Shown piece by piece: positions 6,297 through 14,325 of a stretch of 45,549 bases of DNA; the stretch's first letter is position 1, and every line of letters starts with the position of its first letter. The stretch is from Alphaproteobacteria bacterium. GTDB taxonomy: Bacteria; Pseudomonadota; Alphaproteobacteria; UBA8366; GCA-2717185. Both the position numbers and the translations under genes were made by a program. The notes under the pieces were generated by a model. It was given only the letters and a program-made list of their open reading frames with translations. It was not told the origin of the DNA and did no database searches. The stretch lies in NCBI GenBank assembly GCA_040905865.1, contig JBBDQU010000026.1:1-45549 (forward strand), read 5' to 3'.

Positions 6297-6842
6297 TTAT
6301 GCCGCCGGCGACGGCCAGCCCAGCGTGTTTGCCGCCCAGGCGCGGTCATAGGGCAGACCGGTGGTTTCATGCACCTTCCGAACCGCTTCGGCGTCGGGCG
6401 CCGTGTAGAAGCAGATCATCCGTCGCCGATCCAACGCAACATAGGTTTTCAGAAACCTGACATCGTGCATGTCGAGACACCAGGAACTGGCATCCTCCCG
6501 CGCCTGGAGATCTTCGATCGTCGCCGGTTCCGTAAAGCTCCGCTCCACGACAACGGTCTGACGGCCCGGCGGCGCGATATCCGCCGTTTCAGGCGGGTGA
6601 AAATAATGTCCGGTCCAGACAGTCGCCGGTACTATCGGCACCTCCCGTCCGACATTGCGCACCGCCTCCGCATCGGGCGCCAGAAAGACGCAGATGGCAC
6701 GGGAGCCATCCAGACCAAGGTAACTGCCCCGATAGGTTACCCCGTACAAATCCAGACAGGACTTGCCTTCGTCGCCAAGTTGCCCGTAACGCTGCACGGT
6801 CATCGGCGTATCGAATACACGCTCGCTGATCACATGTTCCAT
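6297..6842 (-). CDS. Tandem-repeat DUF4242 (SCO4226-like) domain protein
   Basis: The 181-residue product is two copies of a DUF4242-like domain in tandem, at about residues 2-80 and 97-177. The repeats line up with an offset of 93 residues: APDAEAVR occurs at 55-62 and again at 148-155, each preceded by an aromatic/Cys-rich strand (AICVF, MICFY) and a CLDxxxVxxxxxYxxLD segment. DUF4242 proteins are small alpha/beta ferredoxin-like proteins; the Streptomyces member SCO4226 binds nickel. The ATG at 6842 lies one base after the TGA of the large regulator upstream, and its ribosome site GGGAGAA is inside that gene, so translation is coupled. A role as ligand- or metal-binding partner of the regulator is inference. 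Confidence 0.82.
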   Translation of the reverse strand: MEHVISERVFDTPMTVQRYGQLGDEGKSCLDLYGVTYRGSYLGLDGSRAICVFLAPDAEAVRNVGREVPIVPATVWTGHYFHPPETADIAPPGRQTVVVERSFTEPATIEDLQAREDASSWCLDMHDVRFLKTYVALDRRRMICFYTAPDAEAVRKVHETTGLPYDRAWAANTLGWPSPAA

Positions 6843-6843
6843 T

Positions 6844-9800
6844 TCATTCTCCCGCGGCAGAAAGCCGGCCGCCGTCTCGCGGTTCGCGCGCCATGACACG
6901 GATGCGTTCGACGGATTCCCGCGACAGCATGTCCTTGGGTAACTCCCGCAGAGCCTCGACCTGCTGCGCCCAAAGCGCCCTGTCTCCCAATTGCGCCGCG
7001 GCGTCGCCGATAATGGCGCGCGCCAGCGCCACTTCGCTTGACCGGTCAAGCATCGTGGCAATGTCCAGCGCCGTATCGGCGCGGGACATTGCCCGTGACG
7101 CATCGCCGCGCGCCAGATCGACCTGGGCCGAACGATTCAGGATATAGGCGTGGCGCTGCTTGTTATCCGCAACGCGCAATGCTTCCAGCGCGGCAATGAT
7201 GCCGCTTTCGTCCCGGGCCGGCCCCGCAGCGTAATCGATCAGCGCCGATAGCGCCTGCGCGCACGGACGCTCGCTGCCCTGACGCAGTTTTTCCGCAAGC
7301 AGGACAAGGTCGGAGGCCCGGCGACGCGCCGCCTTGTAGGAACCGCGCTGGATTTCGATCATCGCCAGCTGTTCAAGGGCATGAAACTCGGCGGCGCGGT
7401 TGCCGTCGCGACGCGCCAGCAAGCGCGCCTGGTCCAGCAGCCGCTCGGCCTTGTCGAGTTCGCCCCGATGCAGACACAGCATGCCCTGGGCGCCCGGCAC
7501 CCCACTGATTTCCGTTCCGGACCGCGTCGACAGTGCAGCCGCCTCAAGCACCAGCGCCTCCGCCTGACCCAGGTCGCGCTCCAGAATCACGAGGCACTTT
7601 GCGGCTTCCGCAAGCGCTTCAATCCGTGCCTCGCCGTCATCCCCGACCGAACGGCTGATCATTTCCGCATGCATGCTGGCGCGATGCGCATCGGTCGAAA
7701 AACCGCCCTCCCAGTGCAGATAGGACATGACCTGGAATCCCAGCCTCGCCTGCGGCAGGGCGCCAAGGTCAAGCGCCCGTTCCGCCATGACGTTCATATC
7801 CCGTGCCGCCGCATCCAGATCATCCGGTCGCCGCGCCCCGATCAGGACGCGGGTCAGTTCGATCTGCCGCATGGTCCGTTCCGGTTCGGACAGGGCGGCG
7901 GCATGACGTAATCCGCGCCGCGCCAGGATCTCGGCTTCCGTATTGGCAAAGATGCGCAGGCATCGTGTGCCCGCAGCCAGACAGGCGCTCGCCGCCAGCC
8001 CTTCATCCCCCGCCAGCGCAGCATGGCGAACGACTTCCGGCGCAACGTCCTCTCCAACCACCTCGCCACCGGTCAGCATTTTCGCCGTGCGCGCATGCAT
8101 CATCCGGCGGCGCGGCTCCGAAATATCGTAATAGACGGCGCGGCGCAGAAGTTCGTGCATAAACCGGCAGGTTGCCGGCGGCTGGCCCGGCGCACCGGTC
8201 AGTTTTAGAATGGAATGCCGCGCCAGTGTTTCCAGCGAATCGACGAGGGCATCCGTCGACAGCCCGGCCAATGCCTCCAGATGCGGCACGGCAAAGCTCC
8301 GCCCCAGTATCGAAGCCCAGCGCGCAGCGTCTCTCGCAGCCTGCGGCAGCCGCTCGATCCGATCGCGCACCAGTTCCGCCAGACTGTGCGGCAGCGTGCC
8401 CTGCCCCTGGTTCAGGGCGCGGGCCAGTTCGATCACGTAGAGCGGGTTTCCCGCGCTTTCCGCGAAGACGGCCGCCGCATCCACATCGGATGCAACCGTA
8501 CCGGCCAGCGCCGCGGTCCCCACCGCATCCAGCGGGCGCAACAGGATATCCTCCAGAATTCCGGTGCGCCGCAACACGCGCAGAACCCGCAGCATCGGAA
8601 GGTTATCCGGCAATTCACCCTCGCGGCCGGTCAGCGCGACGAGCAGCGGCCGATGCCGGTTCATCCGGATCACGTAATGCAGTAATTCCGCCGATGCCTC
8701 GTCGATCCAGTGGACATCGTCGATGAACAGCAGGACCGGCGCCGCGCTATGGGCACGCGCGGCGACGAGTTCGGCAACCGCCCCGAACATCCGTTCGCGG
8801 CTGGATTCCGCCACGATGCCGCGGGACAGTTCCGGCAGCAACGGGGCCAGGTCCGCCGAAAGGTCCGGTCCCAGTACGGAAGCATGCACTTGCCGCAGGG
8901 CATCGATCCAGGGGCCGAACGCCCGGGCCGCCTCAACCTCGTAACAGACCCCGTCAAGAACCGTCCCGCCGGACCGGCGAACCGATCCGACCAGTTCTTC
9001 CGCCAGCCGGGTCTTGCCGATACCCGGCTCCCCCGTGATCAGAAGCACACGCGCCTGCCGCGTCTCCCGGACCTGCGCCAGCACTGTTAGCTGTTTGCGG
9101 GCTTCTGCATCTCGACCGACGATACCGCCGGATGCGGCGGGCGGCATTTCAACCCGCGCCGGTTCCGAATTGCCGGCGCCGCCGGTCGGAACCTCCGAAT
9201 CCGGCTGGTCGCGTTCCGTCAATATCGCGCGCCAGGCTACGGTCAGCGGATCCCCGGCCCGGGGGCCCAGTTCCTGCAGGGCGCGGAGCCCGGCTTCGTA
9301 CTGTTCCTTCGCCTCTTTGCGCCGCCCCGCGCCATCAAGAAGGCGGACCAGGCTGGCGCGCGCTTCGGTATCGAAGGAATCGATCCGGACCAGCAGCCTC
9401 GCGTAGGAAATTGCCCGGTCCGGATCATCGGCGAAGCGGCACAGCAGCGCCCGCAGAATCCGCGCATGCAGGTCGCGGGTATTTTCCCGTTCCGCCAAGC
9501 ACCATTCGTGGAATTCATGCAGGTTCGGCATATCGAGCCCTTCGAGGAAATCCCCGTGGAAGAGCGCCGCCGCCGCAACGAGCCTGTCCGTCTCCGTTTC
9601 CGCCAGCCCGGCGCCGGAAACCAGTTCACGAACCGATAGCAGGTCAATCGTCATACCGGCCGCATCCAGCGCCACCGTTTCGCGGTCGGCGCGGATACGC
9701 CTCGTTTCGTCGTCGTCGACCAGCGAACGGATCTTGCTCAGGCTCCAGCGCAGCGAGCCCCTCGGATCGTCCGGCAATTCCCACAGTAACGCTGAAAGGC

Positions 9801-9948
9801 GATCACGGCGATGCTTCCCCCCGGACGCTGCCAGATAGGCTAACAGGGCCCGTGTCTTTCGCGACGGGGGTAATGGTGTCGCCACTCCATCGCGAAGAAT
9901 CCTGAACTCACCCAGTAGCTTCAGTTCCAGCACGGCCATGTTTCCCAT
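6844..9948 (-). CDS. BTAD/SARP-type transcriptional regulator with AAA ATPase and TPR domains
   Basis: This is a very large one-component regulator of about 1034 residues. The N-terminus (about 1-95) is an OmpR/SARP-like winged helix (LELKLLGEF, TRALLAYLA). A bacterial transcriptional activation domain (BTAD, about 100-245) follows, with the GDFLEGL motif. An AAA/STAND ATPase comes next, with Walker A GEPGIGKT near 306-313 and Walker B LLFIDDVHW near 404-412. The C-terminal half is helical and TPR-like. There is no LuxR helix-turn-helix and no cyclase domain at the C-terminus. Such proteins usually activate transcription when a ligand releases the NTPase module. The start is uncertain: ATGs at 9939, 9948, 9972 and 10056 are all in frame and none has a strong ribosome site; similarity begins at 9939/9948. 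It is translationally coupled to the DUF4242 gene. Confidence 0.88.
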   Translation of the reverse strand: MGNMAVLELKLLGEFRILRDGVATPLPPSRKTRALLAYLAASGGKHRRDRLSALLWELPDDPRGSLRWSLSKIRSLVDDDETRRIRADRETVALDAAGMTIDLLSVRELVSGAGLAETETDRLVAAAALFHGDFLEGLDMPNLHEFHEWCLAERENTRDLHARILRALLCRFADDPDRAISYARLLVRIDSFDTEARASLVRLLDGAGRRKEAKEQYEAGLRALQELGPRAGDPLTVAWRAILTERDQPDSEVPTGGAGNSEPARVEMPPAASGGIVGRDAEARKQLTVLAQVRETRQARVLLITGEPGIGKTRLAEELVGSVRRSGGTVLDGVCYEVEAARAFGPWIDALRQVHASVLGPDLSADLAPLLPELSRGIVAESSRERMFGAVAELVAARAHSAAPVLLFIDDVHWIDEASAELLHYVIRMNRHRPLLVALTGREGELPDNLPMLRVLRVLRRTGILEDILLRPLDAVGTAALAGTVASDVDAAAVFAESAGNPLYVIELARALNQGQGTLPHSLAELVRDRIERLPQAARDAARWASILGRSFAVPHLEALAGLSTDALVDSLETLARHSILKLTGAPGQPPATCRFMHELLRRAVYYDISEPRRRMMHARTAKMLTGGEVVGEDVAPEVVRHAALAGDEGLAASACLAAGTRCLRIFANTEAEILARRGLRHAAALSEPERTMRQIELTRVLIGARRPDDLDAAARDMNVMAERALDLGALPQARLGFQVMSYLHWEGGFSTDAHRASMHAEMISRSVGDDGEARIEALAEAAKCLVILERDLGQAEALVLEAAALSTRSGTEISGVPGAQGMLCLHRGELDKAERLLDQARLLARRDGNRAAEFHALEQLAMIEIQRGSYKAARRRASDLVLLAEKLRQGSERPCAQALSALIDYAAGPARDESGIIAALEALRVADNKQRHAYILNRSAQVDLARGDASRAMSRADTALDIATMLDRSSEVALARAIIGDAAAQLGDRALWAQQVEALRELPKDMLSRESVERIRVMAREPRDGGRLSAAGE

Positions 9949-10131
9949 AGCGGAACGGAGAAAACGGCGCATTCCCGAAACGCCGGATGGCGGGCCATCA
10001 AAGCAAACCCACTGCCGCTTTTTCAATCCCGCAGAAAATACAGCGTTGTCTACCACGGCGACTCAAACGGCAAATCAGCATAACCGTCACAACCAGGCAG
10101 GGACATCAAAAACCAGCGCAGGAGTATTGCC

Positions 10132-10371
10132 ATGTCGTTACAGTATTCAACAAATTTCGTGAATAATGATTTTCCGGTATCGGTCGGCAGTCACTTTCGG
10201 CTCGTCGCCTCAGGCCTCTTCGACAGGACATGCCGCCTGCATCGGGCCATACAGCACCGTCTCACGGCGCCCCGGCGCGCGGCCCAGTTCGCCGCCATCG
10301 ACGACCGGACCCTGCGGGATATAGGCCTGCACCGGTCAATGATCCCGTTGGTCCTGCGTACCGAACCGTGA
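10132..10371 (+). CDS. DUF1127 domain-containing small protein
   Basis: The 79-residue product ends with the DUF1127 (YjiS-like) signature: an arginine-rich helix, then AAIDDRTLRDIGLHRSMI. DUF1127 proteins are small basic proteins common in alpha- and gammaproteobacteria; characterised members affect phosphate/carbon metabolism and RNA turnover. The ATG follows AGGAG at a good distance. A strong intrinsic terminator (10399-10430) lies 27 bases downstream, so it is a single-gene unit, divergent from the large BTAD regulator. The N-terminal 35 residues are unlike typical DUF1127 proteins and are not recognised. Confidence 0.82.
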   Translation: MSLQYSTNFVNNDFPVSVGSHFRLVASGLFDRTCRLHRAIQHRLTAPRRAAQFAAIDDRTLRDIGLHRSMIPLVLRTEP

Positions 10372-10430: not shown

Positions 10431-10585
10431 CAACGGAACGAAATCAGCAAGCCGGAAGAATTCCACGGTCGCCCCGTGCCGCGCAGCCAAATCCAACGCT
10501 TCCTACCACGTTCGCCACAACGGCATCCCGGTACGTTCCTTTCAACACGGCCACACCGGCCGGCACAGCGACAAGGAGACAGAAA

Positions 10586-11500
10586 ATGCACGCCCCGTAC
10601 AGTTACGAAGCGGCCCTCAAGGCCTCCCGGAAGATCGCCTGGGAGATCGAAGATATCATCGGCGGCGAAAAGCGGCTGGATTTCGACAGACCATTCCTTC
10701 CGGAAGCCCTGGCTGGCGTCCAAAAGCTCGATTTCCTTGGACCGGACGAGCAGCGGTGCCTCAACCACATCCGGGCACATGGCTACCTCTATACCTTCGG
10801 CATGGTCGAGGAATTCATCCTGCCCTTCGTTCTGGACCACGCGCGCCCGCAATTGCATGGCGACGATTTCCGCGCCCGCGCCCTGTTGCAGTTCGCCGCG
10901 GAAGAAGCAAAGCATATCCACCTGTTCAAACGCTTCCGGGAAGAATTCACCAGCGGTTTCGGCTCGGAATGCGAGGTCATCGGGCCGCCGGAAGAAATCG
11001 CCCGCGCCGTGCTGTCGCACCACCCGCTCGGCGTCTCACTGATCATCCTGCATATCGAGTGGATGACCCAGCGCCACTATACCGGCAGCGTCCGGGAAGA
11101 TCGGGATATCGACCCGCTGTTCAGCAGCCTGCTGCGGCACCATTGGATGGAGGAAGCGCAGCACGCCCGGCTGGATACGCTGATGGTCGAATCCCTGGCC
11201 GAAGTCCACAGCGCAGCCGAAATTGCGGAAGGGATCGACGCCTATCTCGCGATCGGCGGCATGATCGACGACGGCCTGAAGCAGCAGGCGGAATTCGATG
11301 TCGATGCGCTGACACGGGCGACCGGACGGCATTTCGACACTGCGGAACGGGACCGCCTGCTGGCCGCGCAGCAACGCGCCCTGCGCTGGACCTTCATCGG
11401 CAGCGGCATGACCCATCCCAACTTCCTGGCCACGGTGGAACGGCTCGATCCCCCCGCCCGGCGCCGCCTTGAAACCGAAGTCGCGCCGGCTTTCTGCTGA
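10586..11500 (+). CDS. Ferritin-like diiron (non-heme iron) protein
   Basis: The 304-residue product is mostly helical and has the four-carboxylate, two-histidine pattern of diiron proteins: E76 (VEEF), E107 and H110 (EEAKH), E158 (HIEW), then E190 and H193 (EEAQH). The two ExxH helices and two single-Glu helices are in the order expected for a four-helix bundle. This resembles diiron oxygenases of the AurF or related types more than storage ferritin, but the family cannot be fixed by eye. I chose the ATG at 10586 because AAGGAGA lies just upstream and the upstream in-frame extension runs through the terminator and is low in protein-like content. The OsmC gene follows 44 bases later, suggesting a stress-related or oxidative unit. 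Substrate unknown. Confidence 0.8.
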   Translation: MHAPYSYEAALKASRKIAWEIEDIIGGEKRLDFDRPFLPEALAGVQKLDFLGPDEQRCLNHIRAHGYLYTFGMVEEFILPFVLDHARPQLHGDDFRARALLQFAAEEAKHIHLFKRFREEFTSGFGSECEVIGPPEEIARAVLSHHPLGVSLIILHIEWMTQRHYTGSVREDRDIDPLFSSLLRHHWMEEAQHARLDTLMVESLAEVHSAAEIAEGIDAYLAIGGMIDDGLKQQAEFDVDALTRATGRHFDTAERDRLLAAQQRALRWTFIGSGMTHPNFLATVERLDPPARRRLETEVAPAFC

Positions 11501-11544
11501 CCGCCCTTCCCCTCCTCCCAACGAAAACGAAAAGGAATCGAATC

Positions 11545-12111
11545 ATGAACACAACCACACTCGAAAAAAACATCGTCAACGGGCTGGACCTGGACGCGCT
11601 GGGCGAAATCGTCCAGCAGGTCAGCGACGACCCCGCTAACGGGATCGTATGGTTCAATGTAAACTCCGACTGGCAGGGCCGGACGAAAAGCAGGCACCAG
11701 ATCGAAGGCCTGACGCTTGGCGGCAATTACATCCCCCGCCCCTTCACGATCGTCGCGGACGAGCCGCTGGAATTTCTCGGCGCGAATTCCGCCCCGAACC
11801 CGCAGGAACTGCTGATGGCGGCCTTCAACGCCTGCATCATGGTCGGCTACGTCGCGGGCGCGGCGCTGCGCGGTATCCGGCTGGACAGTGTCCAGATCGA
11901 AACGACCGGATCGCTCGACCTGCGCGGTTTCCTCGGTCTCGATGAGAATGTCGCCGCCGGCTACGAAAAAATCAGCACGGTGGTGCGGATAAAGGGCGAT
12001 GGCACGCCGGAACAGTTTGCCGAAATCCATGAAACGGTGAAGAAGACCTCGCCCAACTACTTCAACATCACCCGACCGGTCGCCGTCGACTGCGAACTCG
12101 TCGTCGGTTGA
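11545..12111 (+). CDS. OsmC family protein, single-cysteine variant
   Basis: The 188-residue product has the OsmC/Ohr fold signature FLGANSAPNPQELLMAAFNACI, with C97 in the first conserved cysteine position. OsmC and Ohr proteins reduce organic hydroperoxides with two cysteines. Here the second position, usually a Cys-Pro pair near the SP-x-x-x-T segment, reads KTSPNYFNITRPV, so the second cysteine is missing. The protein may therefore not be a classical thiol peroxidase. The start has AAAGGAATCG upstream. It lies 44 bases behind the diiron-protein gene on the same strand and is probably co-transcribed with it. Family call is firm, activity uncertain. Confidence 0.9.
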   Translation: MNTTTLEKNIVNGLDLDALGEIVQQVSDDPANGIVWFNVNSDWQGRTKSRHQIEGLTLGGNYIPRPFTIVADEPLEFLGANSAPNPQELLMAAFNACIMVGYVAGAALRGIRLDSVQIETTGSLDLRGFLGLDENVAAGYEKISTVVRIKGDGTPEQFAEIHETVKKTSPNYFNITRPVAVDCELVVG

Positions 12112-12121
12112 CCGTCATGGC

Positions 12122-12164
12122 GGCAGGCACCCCGGGATGCGATTGCATGCCAGGCGTGCCTGCC
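12122..12164 (+). terminator. Inverted repeat after OsmC gene, possible weak terminator
   Basis: Two perfect 9-base arms (GGCAGGCAC and GTGCCTGCC) are separated by 25 bases and start 10 bases after the OsmC stop codon. There is no run of T after the hairpin, so it would be an imperfect terminator or an mRNA-end stabiliser. It marks the boundary before the 2-hydroxyacid dehydrogenase gene. Confidence 0.35.
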
Positions 12165-12265
12165 CTGCCGCGACCATTGTTGCGCGCGCTCCTGCATTCT
12201 GGCAACGTTTTCGCAGTTCCAGCCGAAATTTACCCCCTCTCCCCCACCAGACCGGAGCCGAAGCG

Positions 12266-13216
12266 ATGGCCAAATCGACACTCCTGATCAAGGTCCCCGT
12301 ACGGGACAATGAACTCGCAGACCTTTCCGAAATTTACCACGTCCAGCAGCATATCGAAGACGCACCGCGCGCCGCCTTCCTGACGCAGAGCGGGGGCACG
12401 GTGGATGCGGTGCTGACCAATGGCAGCCTCGGCGTTTCCCCGGAGGAAATGGCCGCGATGACCGGGCTGAAGGTCATCTGCTGCCTCGGGGCCGGCTACG
12501 AAGGGGTCGACCTCGACCTCTGCCGCCAGCGCGGCATCATGGTCACGCACGGGCCGGGCACCAACGATACCGCAGTCGCCGACCACACCATGGCGCTGCT
12601 TTTCGCGATCATCCGCGACATTCCGCATTTCGATGCGCTGGTAAAATCCGGCGGGTGGAAGACGGTCAACACCTCGCGCCCGATGATCAACAGCAAGACG
12701 CTGGGCATCTACGCCATGGGCCGGATCGGGTTGCATGTCGCGAAGCGCGCCCGGGGCTTCGACATGCCGGTGCATTACCACAACCGCAAAAAACGCAACG
12801 ATGTCGACTACGCCTACGAAGACTCGCTGATGGATCTGGCAAAGGTTTCCGACTACCTGATCGTCATCGCACCGGGCGGGGATTCGACATTCCATACCGT
12901 GAATGCCGAAGTGCTGATGGCGCTGGGACCGACCGGCTACCTGATCAGCATGGGGCGCGGCAGCGTGATCGACACCGACGCCCTGATCGAAGCGTTAAAC
13001 AGCGGCGCCATCGCCGGCGCCGGGTTGGACGTGTTCGAAACCGAACCGGATATCCCGTTCGAACTGCGCACGGCGAAGAATATCGTCTTCTCCCCCCATA
13101 TCGCCGGCCGCGCGCCGGAAACCCGGACGATCATGATCGACCTGTTCAAGAACAACCTGAAAAACGTGCTGACCGGCGAAGCGCCGGTGACGCCGGTGCC
13201 GGAACTGGCCGGCTGA
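12266..13216 (+). CDS. D-isomer-specific 2-hydroxyacid dehydrogenase
   Basis: The 316-residue product is a two-domain NAD(P)-dependent 2-hydroxyacid dehydrogenase, reducing 2-oxo acids such as glyoxylate or hydroxypyruvate to D-hydroxy acids. Visible features are GAGYEGVDL in the substrate domain, the nucleotide-binding GIYAMGRIG, the catalytic arginine in MGRGSVID, the glutamate in DVFETEP and the histidine in SPHIAGR. The upstream open frame (to 12137) is discarded because GGAG lies 9 bases before the ATG at 12266 and the fold starts there. The nucleotide motif has alanine where many glyoxylate reductases have a second glycine. It converges with the luciferase-like gene 5 bases downstream. 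Confidence 0.92.
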   Translation: MAKSTLLIKVPVRDNELADLSEIYHVQQHIEDAPRAAFLTQSGGTVDAVLTNGSLGVSPEEMAAMTGLKVICCLGAGYEGVDLDLCRQRGIMVTHGPGTNDTAVADHTMALLFAIIRDIPHFDALVKSGGWKTVNTSRPMINSKTLGIYAMGRIGLHVAKRARGFDMPVHYHNRKKRNDVDYAYEDSLMDLAKVSDYLIVIAPGGDSTFHTVNAEVLMALGPTGYLISMGRGSVIDTDALIEALNSGAIAGAGLDVFETEPDIPFELRTAKNIVFSPHIAGRAPETRTIMIDLFKNNLKNVLTGEAPVTPVPELAG

Positions 13217-13221
13217 GGCGG

Positions 13222-14325
13222 CTAATCCGCCGCCTGCGCCTGCCTCTTGCCGAAGGATGAATCAAAGCGCGGCGCGACATCCACGGCGAAGCGGCGGTAC
13301 ATCTCGCGGCGCACTTCCTTCGGCGTGCCGGGCATGGCGGTCGAGACCAGGAAGTAATTGAAGCCGAGGTCGTTCATCGCCTGCACCCGCCGCGCCACCG
13401 TTTCCGGACTGCCGACCAGATTCTGGTCGATCAGCGGGCCCAGGTTGTCCGGGTCCATCATCGCCCGCATGTTGCCGAACATCTTCGTGAAGACCGCGTA
13501 GTCCTCGATCCCTTCCCAGGGGTTGGCATCGACCTCGTAATGCTTCGCCTGCACCACGAAATTGCGCGGCAGGTAGATCCGGGCCAGGTCGCGCGCTTCC
13601 TCATCCGTGTCGGCGATGAAACATTTCACCTGGATCGGGGTGGTGACGTCGGTCACATGGCCCGCCGCCTCCGACGCCGCCCGCCAGTTGCCGAGAATCT
13701 TCGCCAGCAGCGAGTCCGGGAACTGCGCCAGGCAGAGCGGCGGCAGGCCCAGCTTCGCCATGATTGCCGCACTGCCGGGGCTGCCGATGGCGCCGTAGAA
13801 ATTCACCTTCTTGTCGGTCGGCGCCGGACGGATACGGATTTCACGCGGAATATCGAAATATTTCCCCTTGAAGGTGAAGGGTTCGCCCGACAGCCCGGCC
13901 GCGACGATACGGTAGATTTCATCGAAGCGGCCCCGCGCCTCGCGCATGTCGATACCATAGGCGTCGTATTCCGACTTCGCCGTGCCGCGCCCGATGCCGA
14001 GATGCAGCGTGCCGCGGGTCAGCGTATTCACCATCGAGATTTCCTCGGCGATGCGCAGCGGGTGGTACCAGGGCAGCACCAGCACCGAGGTGCCGAGGCC
14101 GAGATCGGGACAGGCGGCGGCGATATGCGCCATGAACAGCAGCGGGCTGGGCGTGGGGTAGTAATCGCTGAAATGATGCTCCAGCAGCCAGGCGGCCTCA
14201 TATCCCAGCGCCTGCCCGTGTTTGCAGTCCTCGATCACGTCCTGGTAGAGGTCGTGATCGGAGGTCGCCGCATCGCTCGATGGCGCGACCTGGAAGCCGA
14301 AGGTGATTTTGCCGTTGCCGCTCAT
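13222..14325 (-). CDS. LLM class (luciferase-like) flavin-dependent oxidoreductase
   Basis: The 367-residue product has the luciferase-like monooxygenase barrel: WLLEHHFSDYYPTPSP near residue 45-60, LGTSVLVLPWYHPLRIAEE near 80-100, and LHLGIGRGTAKSEYDAYG near 110-125. These are typical of FMN-dependent group-C monooxygenases, which oxidise aldehydes, sulfonates, aromatic or polyamine compounds with a partner flavin reductase. No reductase gene is adjacent. The start at 14325 is preferred over the longer frame to 14424 because the barrel begins at once after MSGNGKITFGFQ; GGGAATTGGGA precedes it. It is divergent from the beta-hydroxyacid dehydrogenase gene, with 114 bases between. Confidence 0.92.
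   Translation of the reverse strand: MSGNGKITFGFQVAPSSDAATSDHDLYQDVIEDCKHGQALGYEAAWLLEHHFSDYYPTPSPLLFMAHIAAACPDLGLGTSVLVLPWYHPLRIAEEISMVNTLTRGTLHLGIGRGTAKSEYDAYGIDMREARGRFDEIYRIVAAGLSGEPFTFKGKYFDIPREIRIRPAPTDKKVNFYGAIGSPGSAAIMAKLGLPPLCLAQFPDSLLAKILGNWRAASEAAGHVTDVTTPIQVKCFIADTDEEARDLARIYLPRNFVVQAKHYEVDANPWEGIEDYAVFTKMFGNMRAMMDPDNLGPLIDQNLVGSPETVARRVQAMNDLGFNYFLVSTAMPGTPKEVRREMYRRFAVDVAPRFDSSFGKRQAQAAD

Follow-up and report, generated by a model that had tools for sequence, protein, structure and literature searches.

Data from sequence comparisons and structure predictions suggest that two coupled genes in a 45,549-nt stretch of alphaproteobacterial DNA (contig JBBDQU010000026.1 of assembly GCA_040905865.1; the whole stretch is called the window below) encode a transcription activator and a small protein dedicated to it. 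The activator, predicted to be a large SARP of the AfsR type, is followed on the same strand by a tandem SCO4226-like (PF14026) protein, which we call the partner, and the arrangement is conserved beyond this genome. We put the probability that the two genes form one regulatory unit, in which the state of the activator is set by its dedicated partner, probably through a thiol-based mechanism, at about 0.5. The AfsR architecture is known; in the variant described here, seen mostly in Proteobacteria, large SARPs have a dedicated PF14026 partner and a 12-bp operator, and those of one clade lack the nucleoside triphosphatase (NTPase) core. No paper describing this pair was found by title or abstract in the open-licence literature. 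To our knowledge, how large SARPs and other STAND activators are switched on is open in most cases, and we know of no settled role for PF14026 proteins. Both questions meet here in one compact unit, with coupled genes, a defined operator with its -10 element, and few targets.

Coupled genes and architecture of the regulator

The regulator gene lies at 6844-9948 on the reverse strand (1034 aa; ATG at 9948, TGA at 6846-6844) and the partner gene at 6297-6842 on the same strand (181 aa; ATG at 6842-6840, stop codon at 6299-6297). A single base (6843) separates the TGA of the regulator from the ATG of the partner, and the probable ribosome site of the partner gene, GGGAG (6849-6853, reverse strand), can be read directly from the sequence inside the regulator gene; frames, spacing and ribosome site were thus confirmed as given in a preliminary description of the window. 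An in-frame GTG at 10056 is an alternative start of the regulator, which would extend it to 1070 aa and put part of operator A (see below) inside the coding region. The genome to which the window belongs contains one PF14026 gene and one regulator of this type.

Three parts can be distinguished in the predicted model of the regulator (29 sequences; predicted local distance difference test score, pLDDT, 89.0; predicted template modelling score, pTM, 0.73), all given here with their positions on the reverse strand. Residues 3-248 (9205-9942) correspond to a SARP domain, i.e. a winged helix plus BTAD, and align with the SARP domain of AfsR (8k60: Z 18.9, 233 residues aligned, root-mean-square deviation (rmsd) 3.8, 24% identity by VIA-align; a second AfsR match has Z 18.4) and with EmbR (2ff4, Z 17.9). 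Residues 274-693 (7870-9129, with the Walker A motif GEPGIGKT) correspond to a STAND NTPase core, in which Pfam found AAA_16 at 92.4 bits and which is matched by the MalT complex 8bob (Z 24.7, 364 residues aligned) and also by Apaf-1. Residues 684-1025 (6874-7899) correspond to a TPR arm that aligns with domain III of MalT (1hz4: Z 21.9, 332 residues aligned), other TPR proteins matching it equally well. The features of STAND NTPases, namely Walker A and B motifs, a winged-helix part and a repeat sensor, are present, and a search of solved structures with the regulator as query returned mainly AAA-core matches.

Pfam reported no BTAD in the window regulator itself and BTAD in 23 of 43 aligned members of its family; no LuxR (GerE) domain was reported in the window regulator or in the aligned family. 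With an N-terminal winged-helix plus BTAD domain, assigned by fold, and C-terminal NTPase and TPR domains, the modelled regulator has the architecture of a large SARP and lacks the LuxR domain found in MalT. The view that an N-terminal SARP-type domain replaces the LuxR helix-turn-helix, put forward from the sequence alone, is consistent with both the fold matches to AfsR and EmbR and the absence of a reported GerE domain.

Conservation of the pair

Contigs were scanned with the partner and then with a regulator profile. Of the 55 loci, 42 have a regulator of the same type directly upstream of the partner and in the same orientation, with a gap of -4 in 25 of them and gaps from -20 to +36 in the remainder; in one of the 42 (L112) the open regulator piece measures only 286 residues. 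The 13 unpaired loci include one in which the order is swapped (L119) and one in which the regulator frame is broken (L125); in three more (L082, L111 and L117) the partner begins about 310 bases or less from where the contig ends. The set, in which Halomonads are over-represented, spans Halomonas, Billgrantia, Parahaliea, Seongchinamella, Azoarcus, Piscinibacter, Deltaproteobacteria, Myxococcales, Hyphomicrobiales and other groups. Among the frames scanned in the 55 loci no fusion of regulator and partner was found.

Moreover, a plasmid search recovered Mesorhizobium sp. AR07, where a 34% identical regulator is followed by a single-domain partner, and a search with the regulator as query recovered a Nostoc carneum plasmid (L069), on which the regulator gene shares 4 bases with the gene of a hypothetical protein of 145 residues that matches PF14026 at 31.7 bits (cut-off 28.5). 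In the stretch 1912-13000 of L069, hypothetical gene pairs that recur with the same lengths (387 and 1707 nt) flank the Nostoc pair; judged by these lengths, they may be copies of one mobile element. A further locus comes from the class of the window (L134, 1653-5375, genome G071): its regulator is 44.5% identical over 984 residues, a partner with both cysteines begins right after the regulator stop codon, and a predicted operator is present.

In 121 genomes of one family (Halomonadaceae, as inferred), the regulator was found in 14 and the partner in 15, with the regulator line drawn at >590 bits after the scores had been seen; weaker matches near 300 bits were taken for other SARP-STAND proteins. 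The partner is present in every one of the 14 regulator genomes and, measured between match ends, lies within 100 nt of the regulator in 13; in G863 and G806 the matched stretch of the regulator frame contains one in-frame TAG each. PF14026 occurs in 36 of 385 genomes sampled from the class of the window (its own genome counted). As a control, the regulator profile was run on 30 generic SCO4226-like loci of this sample and matched one of them, on the opposite strand; the loci extend no more than 1.5 kb to either side, which leaves room for only part of a regulator.

Chance adjacency in a few genomes, an objection raised in the preliminary description itself, might be suspected from the rarity of the pair in near relatives: a relative of the small protein occurs in one of 58 other near-relative genomes. 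The 42 paired loci and the complete co-occurrence in the 14 regulator genomes already refute this objection, to which we assign practically no probability. The other objection named there, repeats without a conserved surface for a ligand or partner, is countered by four cysteines retained in 39-40 of 40 partners, and the translationally coupled two-part unit proposed at first is upheld.

A predicted operator of 12-bp direct repeats

The upstream regions of 23 regulators, 20 from non-Halomonads (window included) and 3 from Halomonads, were used for motif training. A motif of two 12-bp units was found in 22 of the 23 regions, in one orientation throughout, and its left-out scores ranged from 10.0 to 34.0 (n = 22); in 200 shuffled regions the 95% point was 3.1 and the maximum 14.3, a value that 4 of the 22, window included, did not exceed. 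When 53 loci and the window (819 kb) were scanned, 89 matches of at least 18 bits were obtained, whereas 462 kb of shuffled DNA gave none; the shuffles for motif discovery and scan keep base composition only, and the resampled windows used below keep dinucleotide transitions. Of the 43 regulator loci, 41 have a site no more than 350 nt upstream of the regulator, and 33 have a second one just after the partner stop codon, before OsmC.

When the sites are read toward the divergent or following genes, a third 12-bp unit becomes visible, and the pattern xAxxxT, the core of a -10 element, keeps a constant distance in 39 of 43 and in 36 of 37 sites, the non-Halomonads giving 29 of 34; this position was first noticed by inspection and then counted. 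The regulator's own promoter was also considered as the operator target and was rejected, the spacing from the repeats to its CTATACT-like box being variable by eye. Because the -10 spacing is fixed on the other side and variable toward the regulator, the sites were assigned to the divergent or downstream genes. According to excerpts of PMC10936776, SARP sites consist of direct repeats spaced at 11 or 22 bp, and 8 bp lie between the last repeat and the -10 element; here this distance, counted from the core of the third unit, is 9 bp. The predicted sites likewise place direct repeats immediately upstream of a -10 element, as expected of a large SARP, and we treat their 12-bp period as a variant, the 11 or 22 bp being a property of the described sites and not a definition of the family.

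In the window, a 50-base model of 39 sites, built without the window, gives two operators, both on the forward strand and both pointing to the DUF1127/AurF/OsmC side. Operator A (10036-10085; three 12-bp units, with CATAAC in the place of the -10 element; 15.6 bits) points away from the regulator, and operator B (10489-10538; three 12-bp units and a -10-like TACGTT; 13.1 bits) lies 47 nt before the AurF-like start codon; the best of 40 resampled windows reached 7.8 bits. With the same model, two loci outside its training set have sites of 35.0 bits (L134) and 43.9 bits (L144). The interval 9950-10130, named at the outset as the place to look for DNA binding, does contain a predicted site, namely operator A. 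A pattern search of the whole genome of the window gave two operator matches, the same number as in the reversed control, and there was no operator at the second of these places.

Predicted target genes

If operators A and B are active, transcription would run into a DUF1127-like small open reading frame behind operator A (10132-10371; PF06568, 24.3 bits, cut-off 23.3), a putative AurF-like diiron oxygenase (10586-11500; a weak assignment, PF11583, 22.3 bits, below the cut-off of 29.6) and an OsmC-like protein (11545-12111; PF02566, 60.5 bits, cut-off 27.5), all on the forward strand, of which the last two are the predicted targets. Within 1.5 kb of 80 sites, in target orientation, the next matched gene was OsmC in 39, PALP-glutaredoxin in 32 and CMD in 2, with none in 7; by tblastn over 53 loci, OsmC was found in 41, a flavoprotein in 41, PALP-glutaredoxin in 33 and CMD in 30, and 32 PALP matches extend into the glutaredoxin part at a looser E-value. 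In one Halomonad locus (L095) the family models identified an OsmC-like protein (PF02566), a flavoprotein related to the MSMEG_0569 family, whose model it matches at 370.8 bits, short of the cut-off of 498.35, and a peroxidase-related CMD protein (TIGR01926, 89.6 bits, cut-off 81.8), and the PALP-glutaredoxin fusion was identified in L081, L084 and L113.

The window has an AurF-like gene and OsmC instead of this set, and such a pair is also divergent from the regulator in a deltaproteobacterial metagenome-assembled genome (L087). No OsmC was found in L121, L122 (Mesorhizobium) and L124; in Mesorhizobium, a rhodanese lies behind the partner. A PALP-glutaredoxin search of the genome of the window gave PALP-part matches and two short glutaredoxin-like pieces, and no operator was found in its three best PALP/glutaredoxin loci. 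Judged by family names, the common thread of the targets would be thiol and redox chemistry.

Such neighbours would also suit a partner that is an ordinary pathway product, i.e. an enzyme or binding protein of the thiol/oxygenase set, co-expressed with the regulator without contacting it. OsmC, flavin oxidoreductase, PALP-glutaredoxin and peroxidase-related genes surround the partner, and its tandem fold resembles those of the enzymes PenE, chlorite dismutase and sulfur oxygenase reductase. However, the partner stays with the regulator in the three loci where OsmC was not found, and in Nostoc; moreover, operator site 2 falls between partner and OsmC, which sets the partner on the side of the regulator and apart from the target operon. 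We consider a mere pathway product possible, although doubtful.

Fold and cysteines of the partner

The partner matches PF14026 (SCO4226-like, formerly DUF4242) in two stretches, with 93.4 bits against a cut-off of 28.5, which agrees with the two DUF4242-like repeats read in its translation before. Its predicted model (40 sequences; pLDDT 90.8, pTM 0.87) consists of two beta-alpha-alpha-beta-beta-alpha-beta repeats. It aligns with SCO4226 over 81 residues (4oi6: Z 11.3, rmsd 1.8), and its alignments with snail ovorubin and several monooxygenases extend across both repeats. In a search of solved structures SCO4226 came at E 0.72; alkyltransferase matches in that search, at E 0.045 and weaker, were taken for chance.

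Two cysteines per domain mark the partners. Among 40 tandem partners, Cys29, Cys51 and Cys122 are each present in all and Cys144 in 39; 39 of these partners adjoin a regulator, and in L082 that side is cut off. Nine aligned single-domain or partial partners all have both cysteines. In 30 generic PF14026 relatives, by comparison, the second cysteine occurs in every sequence and the first in none in that column, two of them having cysteines two or three places earlier. Because the cysteine pairs of the partner are conserved, a thiol-reactive or redox signal appears the likeliest input.

Alternatively, the partner could be a ligand-binding adaptor of the dimeric alpha/beta-barrel kind, handing a small molecule to the TPR arm, with the cysteines being structural; ligands of this class are haem, aromatic or sulfur compounds. 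The tandem ferredoxin-like model and its best structure matches (snail ovorubin, SCO4226 and monooxygenases) point this way, but resemblance of fold does not demonstrate a ligand, and the single-domain partners that occur would have to dimerise, so that we think an adaptor of this kind unlikely. As for nickel, the same Pfam family and fold make it conceivable that the partner senses or stores nickel, a role that has been proposed for SCO4226, and the preliminary description had drawn that link. The Ni-1 ligands of SCO4226 are Asp43, Ser46 and His76 (excerpts of PMC4186839). In a weak alignment (E-value 0.33; offset by hand) these positions are replaced by Ala136, Arg139 and Trp169 in the partner, and the NCBIfam nickel-binder model NF033706 gives it 30.4 bits against a cut-off of 125; nickel sensing was therefore rejected, and a nickel role of either kind is very improbable.

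Loss of the NTPase core in Halomonads

In 23 of 43 aligned loci, only 8-33 residues remain where the window regulator has 246 NTPase residues (275-520), and the SARP part (about 235 residues) and the arm (about 490) are kept; in a slightly different set of 43 family members, 21 gave an AAA_16 match. The NTPase-less loci all belong to Halomonas, Billgrantia, Litchfieldella or Franzmannia, and all 23 have the partner directly downstream and both operator sites kept. Four of the 14 regulator genomes in the 121-genome family keep full-length regulators.

In AfsR, according to excerpts of PMC10936776, the SARP domain is restrained by NOD and TPR as long as no ATP is bound. The NTPase-less forms are without this ATP switch and therefore must be controlled in another way. 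This natural loss in 23 loci, which is evolution's own experiment, suggests that the essential control lies with the TPR arm and the partner and not with ATP. As a tentative extension, which we regard as somewhat speculative, the signal input may have moved from the NTPase of the regulator into a detachable, co-translated tandem ferredoxin-like thiol protein; in most regulator-bearing Halomonads, where the NTPase has been discarded, the SARP domain, the TPR arm and the partner would then make up a nucleotide-free redox switch for a cysteine/glutaredoxin/OsmC regulon.

Four Halomonad loci have a second regulator-like frame downstream (L088, L095, L105 and L109). The one in L095 (10776-13910) is a BTAD-AAA_16 protein just after the flavoprotein gene and might supply the missing NTPase function.

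Proposed mechanism and comparison with known systems

In the mechanism we favour, the regulator would bind the three 12-bp direct repeats, the last core of which ends 9 bp before a weak -10 element, and the bound regulator would help RNA polymerase to start there, as AfsR does. The targets would be OsmC-like genes with a flavin or diiron oxygenase, together with PALP-glutaredoxin in most gammaproteobacterial loci. Translational coupling would make the partner in step with the regulator, and the partner may dock on the TPR arm and/or the NTPase core and hold or release the SARP domain, its cysteine pairs reading a thiol-reactive signal; the effect could be either to hold the regulator off or to co-activate it. 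The small protein had been proposed at first to sense or deliver a ligand for the regulator: the coupled unit behind this proposal stands, while a sensing or delivering role is suggested by it and kept here as a conditional step. Such control of an activator by its partner would resemble the action of MalY or Aes on MalT, the activity of which is set by separate proteins such as these (excerpts of PMC10427625).

Several observations weigh against this reading. Conserved coupling indicates joint expression only. Eight loci have 0.7-8 kb of upstream DNA and no regulator match (0.7-1.8 kb in L110, L118, L123 and L129; 3.4-8 kb in L120, L130, L132 and L133), and in the 121-genome family the partner of G813 lies 1.3 kb from the regulator and that of G866 occurs without one. 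In the operators, CATAAC of operator A keeps the A and lacks the final T of the -10 pattern, the window sites score lower than most, no operator was found in Nostoc (L069), and that of G813 (L143) is weaker, at 17.7 bits. The repeat period is 12 bp, not 11 or 22 bp. Finally, one of the two peptide patterns used for scanning includes the first cysteine, so that its conservation is partly built in; the first cysteine is also present in Nostoc, Mesorhizobium (plasmid search) and L134, which were recovered by other searches.

With SCO4226 of Streptomyces coelicolor the partner has PF14026 and the fold in common, and it differs in being tandem, in one more conserved cysteine per domain and in the Ni-1 ligands, which are not conserved. 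With MalT the regulator of the window has the STAND core and a TPR-like arm in common. MalT has a C-terminal LuxR-type DNA-binding domain, whereas no such (GerE) domain was reported in the window regulator, and the MalT partners MalY, Aes and MalK have other folds and are not known to be coupled to MalT in this way. The closest relative in design is AfsR of S. coelicolor, which has the same domain order (excerpts of PMC10936776), an alike SARP domain and direct repeats by a weak -10 element. In comparison with AfsR, the system described here has a 12-bp repeat period (11 bp for AfsR), three units and a coupled SCO4226-like partner; most of its Halomonad forms are without the NTPase, and its predicted targets are thiol and redox genes, not antibiotic genes. 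EmbR of Mycobacterium tuberculosis has the fold of the SARP domain in common with the regulator and carries an FHA domain where the window regulator has NTPase and TPR (excerpts of PMC10936776).

SCO4226-like genes near other regulators

In the class sample (own genome excluded), at least 6 of 40 further PF14026 places are located downstream of other AAA_16 STAND proteins, on the same strand and at distances from 12 to about 990 nt, two of those STAND proteins being SAM-cyclase-AAA_16 and four AAA_16-LuxR proteins (L078, 3756-7910; L135, 3267-7407; L136, 2905-5971; L137, 4691-8640; L138, 3249-7172; L076, 6444-10413). Small PF14026 proteins may thus be general partners of STAND signalling proteins.

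The Piscinibacter locus L113 has a second pair at 10678-13662, in which an AAA_16-LuxR regulator is followed after 39 nt by a single SCO4226-like protein. Extra SCO4226-like frames lie some 1.6-4.2 kb downstream in L093, L101, L126, L127 and L131, in L127 behind the OsmC and flavoprotein genes. On the Nocardioides plasmid pNOCA01 (L070, 3878-7664), a large SARP is followed after 10 nt by an SRPBCC-family protein in the position of the partner.

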